IMG/VR virus record: IMGVR_UViG_3300032304_001022
Span: 1-35,304 of that record
Source of the DNA: a virus
Direction: 5' to 3' (one strand)
Length of the DNA stretch: 35,304 nucleotides
Both the position numbers and the translations under genes were made by a program. The stretch's first letter is position 1; the number at the start of each line of letters is the position of its first letter. Below the pieces are notes generated by a model. It was not told the origin of the DNA, ran no database searches, and saw only the letters and a list, made by a program, of their open reading frames with translations. Below are positions 2,153-33,826 of this stretch, in pieces.

Positions 2153-5100
2153 GATAATATAATGTAATAGGATGACCTATAAATCTATGGTTATTATCAT
2201 TCTTTTTTGTTAATTTAACGTATATCCATGGATTTCGAATTCTAGCAAGTTTATCTTGGGAAAGAGAATCTCTCTTAATAGAGTGAGTCCATTGTCTAAA
2301 TCTTCTTTTAATATTATCCCCTGATAGTGATATAGATCCCGTATCTTGATAATCGTTATGTATTTTGACTTCTTCATATGTTTCATCGAATATGTTGTTA
2401 TTTAAACTATCGTAACATTCTGAATACCATTGAATATTATTCCATTCTTTAGTACTTGGATTTTTAGCATTAGATAATAATGTAATAGAGCTATCGTACA
2501 CAGTACCATAGAATTCACAATAATTACCAACATTATGTTGATAGAAATTACATCTAGGAGATAATGAAGGTAATCCTGCTACTGAGAATATTTGTCTACC
2601 AGTAGAATGTAATACAGATGAATTAATATCAAATTCACCTTCAAAACAATTTAATATTTCACTATATGAAATAATCTTACCTGCACCATTATTAAAGCTA
2701 AATAAAACTCTATTATGTCTATTATCATATGTACCATGAATACCAATAGGTATTAATGATGTTTTAGCATCTGTTTCACTTACAAATGGATCATATCTAA
2801 AATAGCTATTTAAACCTTTTAAATCACTTAAAGGTTGTTTAGTATTACTAGATATTCTAAATAGTTTTCTGTTTCTTACATCAAAGAAATATAAATAATC
2901 CTCTGATTGAATAACAGAAGATGTATGTTTAGTTCCATTTTGATTACTTATGTAACCATATACAGAAATAACATCTCCAGTTCCTAATTGTAATTCTATA
3001 CCATCTTGATTTTGAGTAACTACTCTTTCATTAATAGGTACAATACCTACTGCTTTATCTTGGAAGAAATAAACTCTACCTTGATGATTAGCTACTGCAT
3101 TAATTTCACCATATATACCATCTACTTCTATTTGATTGTTTATTTTAAATTTAGTCCAACTATCAATAAGTTCACCATTACGTTTTAATTCACTAACATG
3201 AATTGCATATGGTTGTTGATCGTCAAAATTAACAATAAATGGTTTAGCTACAAATACTTGCTTACTATTATTAACTTGAGTATAAACTTCATTTAAAAAG
3301 TAATTCTCTTGAGCATATTGTAAGTTATTTGCTGTTGATGTACCTCTATTTCTATTAAAGAAACTACCGTGTCTTAAATCAAAATTAGCTGCACATTCTA
3401 CTGGGAAAAATATACCAAATGAATAAGAATCAGAAGCTGAATCCATGTTTTGTATTTTTTCAAATCCAAAATTTAAGACATATGTATCTCCACCATATAC
3501 TTTTAACACAGATGAAGAATTAGATGCTATAAAACATCCAGTTGTTATATATCTATTATTACTTCTAGCTTCATAAGTGTTTCCACCATATTGATTAGCT
3601 AAGTTTCTTTTATATGTAAAATAAGGTATAATATCATCTGTTGTATTCATATCAGCTAATACATCTCCAAATGTAGTATATGATGCTGCTGCTAAATCTA
3701 ATCCTCCAATAAAAGATAAACCACATTTTCTATCTGTTGTTCCTTTATTGAAATATATTGTATAACCACCAGTATCTGTTGTAAAATCAGCTAAGTTAAA
3801 ACTACCATTGTAGTTAACTTTAATTAATTCATTGAGTTCTAAGTTAATAAGAACATCGTTATTATCTAACTCATAAGCTCTATAATAAGATAAATCAGCA
3901 GCAGGGTTATTCCCAGAATTAAATGCACTTGTATCTAAATTAAAGTGTTTATTAAATTCTAAATAATCACCTTCTTTAAATCTATGTTTAGTTACATCTT
4001 GGAATAAAAAATTAGGAGAATGCATTTTTACAAATCTCCATGGTGCACCTGTAGATGTATATGTTGCTGCATTTAATATATGCGAACCATCATATAAATC
4101 TGTTCCACCATCTGTTACAATAGTAGAAACAATACCACCACCAAGATTTGTTCTGTTATTAACATCTCTTTCTACTCTAACTATCTCATAACCAGATATT
4201 AATTCTTTAACATCATCAGGTATAGTTATATCAAACTCTATACCTATTTGATTACCATATAATGTAGTACCACCAAAAGCTGTTAAATTAATATCATCTA
4301 TTGATGGAAATTTAATATCACCTATCCATTTAGTAAATGAAGGTTGACCTTTTTTATTATAAAATACAATACCAAATCTATAAATTTCATCTCTTGAATA
4401 ACCTTGATATAAGAAATTTACATATGGTGATTTATAATTAGGTACTTGGTCTTCAATGTTATAGTTGATTCCGTTACCAAAATTTTCTAATAATGTTTGT
4501 CTACTAGGGCCATCGGCAAATGGAGCATCTGGAAAATTAGATAAATAATTATTATCTATAATAATTTGTTTAGTTATAAATTTATATTTAACATATAAAC
4601 CTTCTCCACCTAATGTTGTTCCATCTGATTGATATTTATATTCATCATAATCAACATCATTTTTATTATTAAATGGGTTAATTGCATCGTGATCATAATC
4701 TAATAGAAAATCAGTATCTATAGTAGTAGTTTCACCTATTTTATTTTTAACAATAGATGTACCATCTGATTTAAATCTAAATGCTCTAGCATCAAAATCT
4801 TTATCATTTATTTCAAAATTAAATGATTTAGTATTAACTGCTATTAATCTATTATCTTTTTGTGTAAAATCTTTACAATGTGTAAATTGAGCAGATAACA
4901 TATTGAACTCTTGCTCAGATAAATCTATTTGTTCTTCATCATTTGTGAACGTTACATTTAATTCTCTTGAAGAAGGTATTAATTCTTCTTTAAATATCTT
5001 ATAAACTGGTAGATTATTAAATTCATATAAGACAGCTATATGTCTTATTCTATCATAATTATCATCTATATTAGATATATTATATGTAACACTCTTAGAT

Positions 5101-26856: not shown

Positions 26857-28497
<1,641 letters not shown>

Positions 28498-29976: not shown

Positions 29977-30008
29977 CAAATATAATAAAACTTCTTATAC
30001 GTTGTCAA
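29977..30008 (-). promoter_or_regulatory. Leftward promoter, TTGACA-N18-TATATTTG
   Basis: On the minus strand a consensus TTGACA (30008-30003) is followed after 18 bases by TATATTTG (29984-29977), matching both sigma70-like -35 and Bacteroidota -7 boxes. It is the best promoter match in the window and would drive the operon from 29956 through chaperonins, TerL and portal. Confidence 0.75.
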
Positions 30009-31149: not shown

Positions 31150-31392
31150 ATGCATAAAATTCAAATAGAAAAATGCACCAATTATAAAATTGATTGGAAT
31201 AAAAATCAATATGTGCAACATATAGATAAACCAGATCTTATTGTTAATTATCTAGGAGAACATGATGATATGTGGTTTAAAGGTTATGTACATCCTTGTG
31301 ATTTATATCCTTTAGGAAAATGTTCTAAATTTTATAAACCTGAATTTAAACGATTCACTGGTAAAGCAACATTAATCATTGAAAATACATAA
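31150..31392 (+). CDS. Small protein, paralog of the gene at 32862-33116
   Basis: An 80-residue protein with DW then VQ in the first third and the core GEHDDMWFKGYVHPCDLYPLG (about 36-56, kept here as GEH-D-F-GY-PC-YP-G). The 84-residue product at 32862-33116 shares this core in the same order and spacing. The single Cys in PC and the His in GEH are conserved in both, possible metal or redox residues. No outside family is recognised. It starts the gene group upstream of the first RNA-like stretch. Confidence 0.6.
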   Translation: MHKIQIEKCTNYKIDWNKNQYVQHIDKPDLIVNYLGEHDDMWFKGYVHPCDLYPLGKCSKFYKPEFKRFTGKATLIIENT

Positions 31393-31396
31393 CACT

Positions 31397-31684
31397 ATGA
31401 TTATCAACATAGAAGAAAAAAAAGAAAAAACATACAAACCAGGAGATTGGTTCTTGTATGATAATAAACAGCTATATGTTTTAACTGAAACAGGTAACAA
31501 AAGTGTAACATTAATAGGAGTTACTAAAAATCACGCTCATCAAAGTTTTGCATCAAAAGAAGTAAATGACATAAATAATATCATTAAAAGTGAATTAGAT
31601 TGTTTATCCCTTTATACTGATAAATCAAAATGGGAACATGTAGATGTAACAATTAATGTTGCAAGAAGCCATTCAATATTATAA
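31397..31684 (+). CDS. Unrecognised 95-residue protein
   Basis: I place the start at the ATG at 31397 (MIINIEEKKEKTYKPGDWFL), five bases after the previous stop, rather than at an in-frame TTG at 31379 that would overlap it. The N-terminal YKPGDWFLYDNKQLYVLTET looks like a small beta domain. The rest is mixed. No family is recognised. The stop is directly followed by the first RNA-like stretch. Confidence 0.58.
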   Translation: MIINIEEKKEKTYKPGDWFLYDNKQLYVLTETGNKSVTLIGVTKNHAHQSFASKEVNDINNIIKSELDCLSLYTDKSKWEHVDVTINVARSHSIL

Positions 31685-31694
31685 AAAACTCAAA

Positions 31695-31702
31695 TAACTT
31701 TG
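31695..31702 (+). promoter_or_regulatory. Possible -7 box (TAACTTTG) in front of RNA-like stretch A
   Basis: TAACTTTG matches TAnnTTTG and lies where stretch A begins, so an RNA could start near 31709, just before its first helix at 31716. No TTGAC-type -35 is present at the expected distance, so chance is quite possible. Confidence 0.3.
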
Positions 31703-31985
31703 CAAGTTGTTGAGCACACCTAGTTCTTTGAATAATGTGAAGCGCATGAGATAATATCAATAGTGGTAAGCAACAAAGTGTTCAAAGTTTAAGGTGTAAA
31801 ACACAATGGACTCCTACTGGATCGATGGGTGATACCAAAGATTTACAGGAAAAAAGAGGGTTAGTTGAACATAATTTAATCATACGATGAGTATGAATTA
31901 TGGAATACGAATCTACTAAGGTGGGATCTTAGTACCCAATGAAGGTAATCAGACCTTTGATGTCAAGTAAAACCATCCTTGATTA
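31703..31985 (+). ncRNA. Structured RNA A (novel-looking), about 280 bases
   Basis: The 364 bases between genes (31685-32048) have no credible reading frame; stops of all three types are dense. Helices visible: ACACCT/AGGTGT (31716-31721 with 31792-31797) continuing, across a 4x4 loop, as CTTTGAA/TTCAAAG (31726-31732 with 31781-31787). Further: TGGATC/GAT-a-CCA (31818-31837); CATAATT/AATTATG stacked on CATAC/GTATG (31870-31902, 12 bp with a TAAT bulge); TACTAAG/CTTAGTA (31914-31934); AAGGT/ACCTT (31942-31957); TCAAG/CTTGA (31963-31982). Bases 31986-32048 are A-rich and unstructured. Class unknown; the strand follows the flanking genes. Confidence 0.6.
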
Positions 31986-32048
31986 GCTATAAACAAAACA
32001 ATAACAATAACTAAAAGCCTCTGATATACAGGTAGTATATTAAACAAA

Positions 32049-32234
32049 ATGGAAAGAATTGTAAAAGTTTTTTTGGTAAATAAGTTAAGTCTTGATACTT
32101 GTTTACAAGATCCTACTGAAGAACAGTTTTTAGATTATGTTGAAAAACTAGAAAGCTGGGATTGGATTTTTGTATCAACAGCAACAGGAGAAGTATTTCA
32201 TTTACGTGACTATATTTTAAATATGGTAGAATAA
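32049..32234 (+). CDS. Small 61-residue protein between RNA-like stretches
   Basis: An acidic, probably alpha/beta protein (MERIVKVFLVNKLSLDTCLQ, then an EEQFLDYVEKLESWDWIF segment). The composition is that of a real soluble protein, and the A-rich bases before the ATG resemble the other starts here. It is enclosed by stretches A and B. No family is recognised. Confidence 0.55.
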   Translation: MERIVKVFLVNKLSLDTCLQDPTEEQFLDYVEKLESWDWIFVSTATGEVFHLRDYILNMVE

Positions 32235-32238
32235 TAAT

Positions 32239-32824
32239 CTTTTAGTTACCCAATACCCAGTAATGGTGAGGGTGACTTAATTAATTAAAAGTGCAATTAA
32301 TGGTAGGCATACTATTAATGGAATTGACAGAAATATAGGGTTCTACAGAAAGACCTATATTGTATAACAAAGCTATGGTGGCTAAATAGAACTACAAATG
32401 TGTTTTATTTATTCTCGTGAGAGATTTTGTTAGTAGAATAGAAAATAATACAAATGGATTTTGTGTAATTCAACATGGACGTAGATAAGCTAAGCTGAAG
32501 CTACAATAATAGGTGTGATAATAATGCCTGATCCTAAATATATTTGAGACTAAAAAGACTCTCAGTTACAATGTAATAGTAATATTAATATTATGAGTAA
32601 ACTTACCAAGTATATATTATGTGTTGTCTTATCTAAGGTAGTGATACCAAAAACTATTCTTACAGGTAATCCATAATCCTGTATTCCAAGCACTTTTAAT
32701 TAATTATAATGTAATGCATCATAACTCACTTCCCAAGGGTGAGCAGTTGTAATAGAATAGTAAGTCCATTAATTTGGTGATACACCAGTAGTTAAGAAAC
32801 TATGTAACTATTACAACTAAGTGC
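32239..32824 (+). ncRNA. Structured RNA B (novel-looking), up to about 590 bases
   Basis: No protein gene fits in 32235-32861. Helices: CTTTTA/TAAAAG (32239-32244, 32286-32291) enclosing GTTACCC/GGGTGAC (32245-32251, 32270-32276); a 10-bp hairpin with GGCA loop (32296-32319); ATATAGG/CCTATAT (32333-32360); GGTA-GTGA-TACC (32637-32648); TACAGG/CCTGTA (32661-32683). The 3' domain is most convincing: GCACTT/AAGTGC (32690-32695, 32819-32824) encloses CTCACTT/GGGTGAG (32725-32743) and an 11-bp helix (32745-32755 with 32808-32818) whose interior has TGGTG-ATA-CACCA (32775-32787). The 3' strands of the two long helices are adjacent, as in a coaxial stack. It could be two RNAs; 32830-32861 is A-rich leader. 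Confidence 0.6.
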
Positions 32825-32861: not shown

Positions 32862-33116
32862 ATGAGAAAAGTAGAAATTGTAAAAGTAACTAAAATTAAA
32901 CTTCCTGATTGGAGTAAAAAAAATTGGGTGCAAAATTTTGAAGATCGAACAGCAATTATTGCAACAACTGGTGAACATAAAGATAATGGATTTTCTGGTT
33001 ATTGTTTACCTTGTGAAGCTTATCCAAAAGGTGAATTTTTTAATAATTGGCCTAAAAAAAAATTCATATTATTAGAAGATGATATTCCATTTGTAATTAG
33101 TAACAAAGAAAAATAA
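32862..33116 (+). CDS. Small protein, paralog of the gene at 31150-31392
   Basis: An 84-residue protein sharing with its paralog the order DW - VQ - GEH - D - F - GY - PC - YP - G. Its core is GEHKDNGFSGYCLPCEAYPKG in the same spacing, with an extra Cys in GYC. The C-terminus is Lys-rich. Each paralog lies upstream of an RNA-like stretch (A via the 95-residue gene, C directly), suggesting a duplicated module. No family or function is recognised. Confidence 0.6.
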   Translation: MRKVEIVKVTKIKLPDWSKKNWVQNFEDRTAIIATTGEHKDNGFSGYCLPCEAYPKGEFFNNWPKKKFILLEDDIPFVISNKEK

Positions 33117-33372
33117 AATAACATTGTAAATTACAAAGAAATATAGACTCGATAAGGGAGATACATAAGAAACCATGTTGTGATTTAGTAGAAATGTTTG
33201 AAATATAACTATGCTAAAAGAGACTGAACTTATCTAATTTACAATAAAAATATAGGTTTGATATTTACCTATGTGTTATGGTAGAAGATTTGTATAATGT
33301 GAGAAATCCTATATACAACTTAAAGAAGTTACCTAATTCACATAAAAAGTTGTAGTAATAGTGTAAACATGG

Positions 33373-33407
33373 ATAAGTGTTTAAGTTTAAAAGACTCCAT
33401 CTACTAC
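33373..33407 (+). repeat. Imperfect direct repeat inside RNA C, copy 1
   Basis: This stretch and 33670-33706 share AAGyGTTTAAGTTTrAA, then AAGACT and, a few bases on, TACTAC, with two extra bases in copy 2. A weaker relative occurs in RNA A at about 31776-31818 (GTGTTCAAAGTTTAA, later GACTCCTACT). The copies fall in different domains, so they may be protein-binding or long-range pairing elements. Confidence 0.45.
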
Positions 33408-33669
33408 TAGAAATTGTGTTGTTTCTACTTGAGAAATAGAAATATCTTAAACCATACGTTGCAACCGTAGCAAGACCAAATAAAGGTGAGAATCTTGTGC
33501 AAATGGGTAACGTAGCCGAAGCTGTTGAAAAACAGGTTACAGAGTCTGTAGGCGAGACCTTTACAACACAAATATCATTCTCAAATATAATGTTTATAGA
33601 GGCCCGTGTCAAAGCTCGGTGTATATGGTGTAGCAGAAGCACACTATAAGCATTATATAATGTTTTGTA

Positions 33670-33706
33670 AGAAGCGTTTAAGTTTGAAACAAGACTATAA
33701 TACTAC
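33670..33706 (+). repeat. Imperfect direct repeat inside RNA C, copy 2
   Basis: This copy lies in the loop closed by the 12-bp helix (33659-33670 with 33733-33744). It contains GTTT-AAGTTTG-AAAC, itself able to form a 4-bp hairpin, followed by AAGACTATAATACTAC, whose TATAATAC pairs with 33720-33727. See copy 1 at 33373-33407. Confidence 0.45.
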
Positions 33707-33826
33707 CACAGACTGAAATGTATTATATGAGATTACAAAACATTAAAATATTCTATACCAATAATATACCTTAATATTAATCAAGTATTTGGTAGAAGAT
33801 ATGAATTATTAATAATTTAATTAGAA

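Follow-up and report, generated by a model that had tools for sequence, protein, structure and literature searches.

Two small genes of a crAss-like phage are separated by a noncoding stretch of 364 bases. What is it, and does it act as an RNA? The DNA in question is a 35.3-kb virus record, analysed over its whole length of 35,304 nucleotides (the window). In the human gut, few phages are as abundant as the Crassvirales. The lineage of the window is poorly sampled and has almost no sequenced relatives; with a pair of short IMG/VR fragments its terminase shares 65% identity, and with Cellulophaga phage phi14:2, a member of the Crassvirales, 34%. A GroEL-like chaperonin gene is found near the terminase (26857-28494, minus strand), and such a chaperonin also occurs in phi14:2 and several IMG/VR relatives (38-45% identity). 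The answer preferred here, held tentatively and at a little under an even chance, is that this stretch, termed RNA A, belongs to the phage's early transcript and forms a structured, noncoding RNA segment of it; its function is inferred.

The minus strand carries late genes from 1 to 29956, and the plus strand carries small early genes from 30483 onward, where 'early' and 'late' are labels assigned from gene content and orientation. Noncoding gaps longer than 150 nt are few in the window and cluster in one zone of the early region; elsewhere the genes are tightly packed. Three long gaps break the plus-strand block, and the first of them is bounded by two small open reading frames (ORFs):

31397 to 31684, plus strand: upstream small ORF, complete, 95 aa, PHROG 1945 (unknown function), positive coding score
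31685 to 32048, plus strand: RNA A, a noncoding folded stretch of 364 bases, the whole gap between two small ORFs
32049 to 32234, plus strand: downstream small ORF, 61 aa, starting directly after RNA A, positive coding score
32235 to 32861, plus strand: RNA B, a second noncoding folded stretch
33117 to 33826, plus strand: RNA C, a third noncoding stretch

Two further small ORFs of this block, 31150-31392 and 32862-33116, are paralogues (35% identity, phmmer 1.5e-14); no relatives elsewhere were detected with the alignment of both as query.

Coding potential was scored with a codon model trained on the long genes of the phage. RNA A, B and C score negatively in all six frames, and every flanking small ORF is positive in its own frame. 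A decayed gene as the origin of RNA A is not supported, residual coding signal being absent in this model. Nor does RNA A resemble a described RNA: it has no match in Rfam 15 at the gathering threshold and nothing credible at E values up to 10. ARAGORN finds no tRNA in the window, and the cloverleaf, T arm and anticodon of a tRNA are not recognized in RNA A by ARAGORN or Rfam. A self-splicing intron would have a conserved core and an interrupted host gene. Neither was found; the match of the upstream ORF covers nearly all of PHROG 1945, and since that ORF is complete, RNA A does not lie within an intron-split gene. It is therefore highly improbable that RNA A represents a divergent form of a described family (tRNA, group I or II intron, ROOL, GOLLD or a small ribozyme), even though its position, in a zone with tRNAs and a ribozyme in relatives, would suit such an origin.

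The predicted fold of RNA A runs, in order, through a 5' hairpin, two stems (P1 and P2), a multibranch domain with four hairpins, and a 3' hairpin:

31689 to 31714, plus strand: 5' hairpin of 11 bp, with a TGC triloop and a single bulge, containing TAACTTTG (pair probability 0.78-0.82)
31716 to 31797, plus strand: P1, a stem of 6 + 9 bp around a symmetric 4x4 internal loop (pair probability 0.96-0.99)
31812 to 31850, plus strand: P2, an interrupted hairpin holding GTGATACCAAA...TTACAGG
31855 to 32022, plus strand: multibranch domain, closed by 31855-31867/32008-32022 (pair probabilities 0.76-0.95)
31914 to 31937, plus strand: hairpin with a GGG triloop on a 9-bp stem, followed directly by CCC
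32023 to 32041, plus strand: 3' hairpin, separated by 7 nt from the start codon that follows (pair probability 0.98)

The four hairpins of the multibranch domain are 31870-31902, 31914-31934, 31941-31958 and 31962-31983. The initial annotation, made by eye from the sequence, had described six helices here, and these are present where it placed them; its count is too low, and the 5' hairpin, the long-range closing stem and the 3' hairpin have to be added. Its 13-bp interrupted stem with a 4x4 loop is P1, with arms 31716-31721/31792-31797 and 31726-31734/31779-31787 around the loop 31722-31725/31788-31791. Its 12-bp stem with one bulge is likewise recovered (31870-31875/31897-31902 and 31880-31885/31891-31896, bulge 31876-31879; pair probability 0.90-0.95). 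The small pseudoknot that it had proposed between a hairpin loop and a nearby CCC does not hold up. The GGG, at 31923-31925, forms the triloop of a 9-bp stem, and the CCC at 31935 follows that stem directly, so that in an H-type GGG-CCC knot the chain would have to cross the 9-bp stem with no linker, which is sterically unlikely.

No homologue of RNA A was found in Rfam, in phages, in plasmids or in about 1.7 Mb of relatives, and hence there is no covariation with which to judge the fold. Searches by blastn of phages and plasmids gave nothing at standard thresholds and only short chance hits at relaxed ones. Searches by nhmmer and blastn over up to 118 loci revealed no recognisable copy, and covariance models built for the 3' and the 5' domain from this one sequence found no homologue. 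An exact 18-mer in IMG/VR led to no homologue, nor did synteny around PHROG 1945. Single-protein scans of IMG/VR (186-aa ORF, PHROG 1945 ORF and GroEL) turned up no relative holding the RNA A region, and the small proteins tested around RNA A have no relative in IMG/VR or in genome contigs. The word GTGAAGCGYATG, shared with relative L004, was dropped as a candidate; it is present in only 1 of 23 relatives.

In relatives, the same zone of the early region has long noncoding gaps; tRNAs occur in some of them, and one harbours a Hatchet ribozyme. The ribozyme (RF02678, 77.9 bits against a gathering threshold of 51) is on the minus strand at L046:639-775, in a 935-nt noncoding gap that also has a partial tRNA match at 290-354. 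In another relative, a 54-nt tRNA-like sequence (L049:14670-14723, minus strand; 37.5 bits) has acceptor, D and T arms and no anticodon arm, and lies about 1.2 kb from a complete tRNA-Arg. Across 24 such gaps, the mean MFE z is -2.7 versus -1.5 for coding chunks, a difference inflated by terminator hairpins.

How far does the fold of RNA A depart from chance? Helix by helix, it is at chance level. Exact helices reach at most 7 bp, less than the 7.9 averaged by shuffles, and the MFE z is -2.2 to -2.9, where -2.2 is reached by 20% of same-phage segments. Taken as a whole, the predicted fold is defined to an unusual degree, and on the sense strand only. Ensemble diversity is 0.094 versus 0.241 in shuffles (0 of 150 lower), a value undercut in 1.3% of same-phage segments (RNA A lies below 98.7% of them). 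The signal is confined to the plus strand, with 0 of 80 against 0.275 on the reverse. Some coding segments are equally well defined (diversity p<=0.05 in 2 of 11 coding chunks), so the diversity of RNA A counts as support, not proof. The observation is sound and weaker than it appears. The description of the gap as a structured RNA is supported: RNA A is noncoding in all frames, has a well-defined strand-specific fold and fills the whole intergenic gap.

These numbers bear on a plainer explanation, that RNA A is functionless intergenic sequence that folds well by luck, for example a relic of lost genes or tRNAs. The chance-level MFE z and helix length fit this explanation, as do the failure to find a conserved relative and the truncated tRNA-like sequence in the same zone of one relative. 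It is nevertheless somewhat unlikely: RNA A contains no residual coding signal or tRNA, the definition of its fold surpasses all 150 shuffles on one strand alone, and genes leave little free space in the remainder of the window.

Another question is whether RNA A has a promoter of its own. In Bacteroidota, the sigma-A promoter has TAHHTTTG at -7 and TTTG or TTG near -33 (PMC6847099). One candidate box is found in RNA A:

31695 to 31702, plus strand: TAACTTTG, a possible Bacteroidota-type -7 box; at the -33 distance, TTC takes the place of TTG

The box fits TAHHTTTG, and by the numbering of that study (PMC6847099) the transcript would start at 31707; TTC stands 20 nt upstream, where TTG is expected. 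The initial annotation had noted a possible -7 box just before the first helix. The consensus match stands; the box itself falls within a helix that had been missed, as one arm of the 11-bp 5' hairpin, and TTG at -33 is absent. The word is not diagnostic, since the window contains 11 copies of it, mostly inside or antisense to genes. TTG/box pairs at the right spacing number 16 in the window versus 4.9 expected. Likely late promoters of the form TTG-N18-21-TANNTTTG are seen on the minus strand near 29977, 21354, 9320 and 2081, 8-30 nt before gene starts, and three of the four begin with TTGAC. Folded-looking leaders have been noted by eye at the start of the early region in two relatives (L004 about 340-710 and L007 about 3440-3600, minus strand); they follow a TAnCTTTGC box and have, also by eye, matching GTGAAG/CTTCAC-type stems.

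That RNA A is an independent small-RNA gene, transcribed from TAACTTTG with a start near 31707, is improbable. The consensus fit with TTC at N20 (PMC6847099) and the similar boxes, seen by eye, before the early leaders of L004 and L007 speak for such a gene. In view of RNA-seq data from F. johnsoniae, a promoter at TAACTTTG may exist even with the TTG absent. However, no TTG is present at 17-22 nt, unlike the promoter-like sites just upstream of late genes, the box doubles as a hairpin arm, most of its other copies lie in or antisense to genes, and no terminator follows RNA A.

The 3' end of RNA A raises a different possibility, that it serves the 61-aa ORF at 32049 as a cis-acting leader, its 3' hairpin and multibranch domain controlling translation or stability of that message. 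Between the fold and the start codon lie 7 nt, the A-rich AAACAAA. In Flavobacterium johnsoniae, a member of the Bacteroidota, translation is tuned by structure close to the start codon (PMC6847099). RNA B and RNA C likewise lie directly before small ORFs. A role as leader is still unlikely, since a 360-nt leader is long for a 61-aa gene, no ligand or protein site is known, and a non-systematic search identified no alternative fold that hides the start codon.

RNA B is a stronger candidate for a structured RNA than RNA A. It has a z of -4.1 and a 17-bp perfect closing stem (32278-32294/32690-32706) with 395 nt between its arms, a length reached by 0 of 60 shuffles. The fold of RNA C is not well defined (diversity p 0.85), and local alignment shows no overall similarity among the three. 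RNA A (in P2) and RNA B (at 32641) have in common the word pair GTGATACCAAA-N-TTACAGG, which has no other occurrence in 1.7 Mb of relatives. For this sharing, p is 0.003 when judged by shuffles and 0.008 when judged against real segments; the motif was noticed first and tested afterwards across three RNA pairs, and its pairing context differs between the two RNAs. It is rather doubtful that RNA A and RNA B belong to one undescribed set of structured phage RNAs, marked by a shared GUGAUACCAAA...UUACAGG element and alternating with small genes, some of them paralogous, in the early region of a crAss-like phage lineage.

In the preferred reading, RNA A, as a structured segment of the early transcript, would probably be transcribed on the plus strand together with the surrounding small genes, because no intrinsic terminator was found between these genes and RNA A. 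It may act as a folded RNA in its own right, perhaps processed, and could accumulate next to RNA B in structured form. Should the folded gaps prove to be real RNAs, such phages would keep undescribed noncoding RNAs in their early region, beside tRNAs and ribozymes; for RNA A, the case is that of a single sequence without covariation. A literature search found no paper on noncoding RNAs in crAss-like phages.

Three known systems can be compared with this locus. Structured 5' leaders of bacterial messages resemble RNA A in being placed directly before an ORF, here a small one; RNA A differs in having no known regulatory motif or alternative fold found to hide the start codon. ROOL and GOLLD are long, noncoding, folded phage RNAs that often occur near tRNA islands (PMC12286853). 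RNA A does not match their covariance models in Rfam 15, whether at the gathering threshold or at E values up to 10. It is shorter (364 nt), is known from a predicted fold, and has no Rfam match, supported pseudoknot or homologues. A homo-oligomeric cage counts among the marks of these two families. Like them, RNA A is a noncoding phage stretch with a predicted fold; as to location, RNA A and RNA B occupy a zone that bears tRNAs in relatives, and the window itself has none. In crAss001, tRNAs form an island with small genes between them, close to the terminase and on the side facing away from the portal gene. RNA A differs from the members of such an island in having no tRNA match by ARAGORN or Rfam, and shares with them the placement of folded RNAs among single small genes near the terminase. 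The arrangement of RNA A and RNA B may be likened to the tRNAs and large ornate RNAs that other phages carry in islands between small genes.
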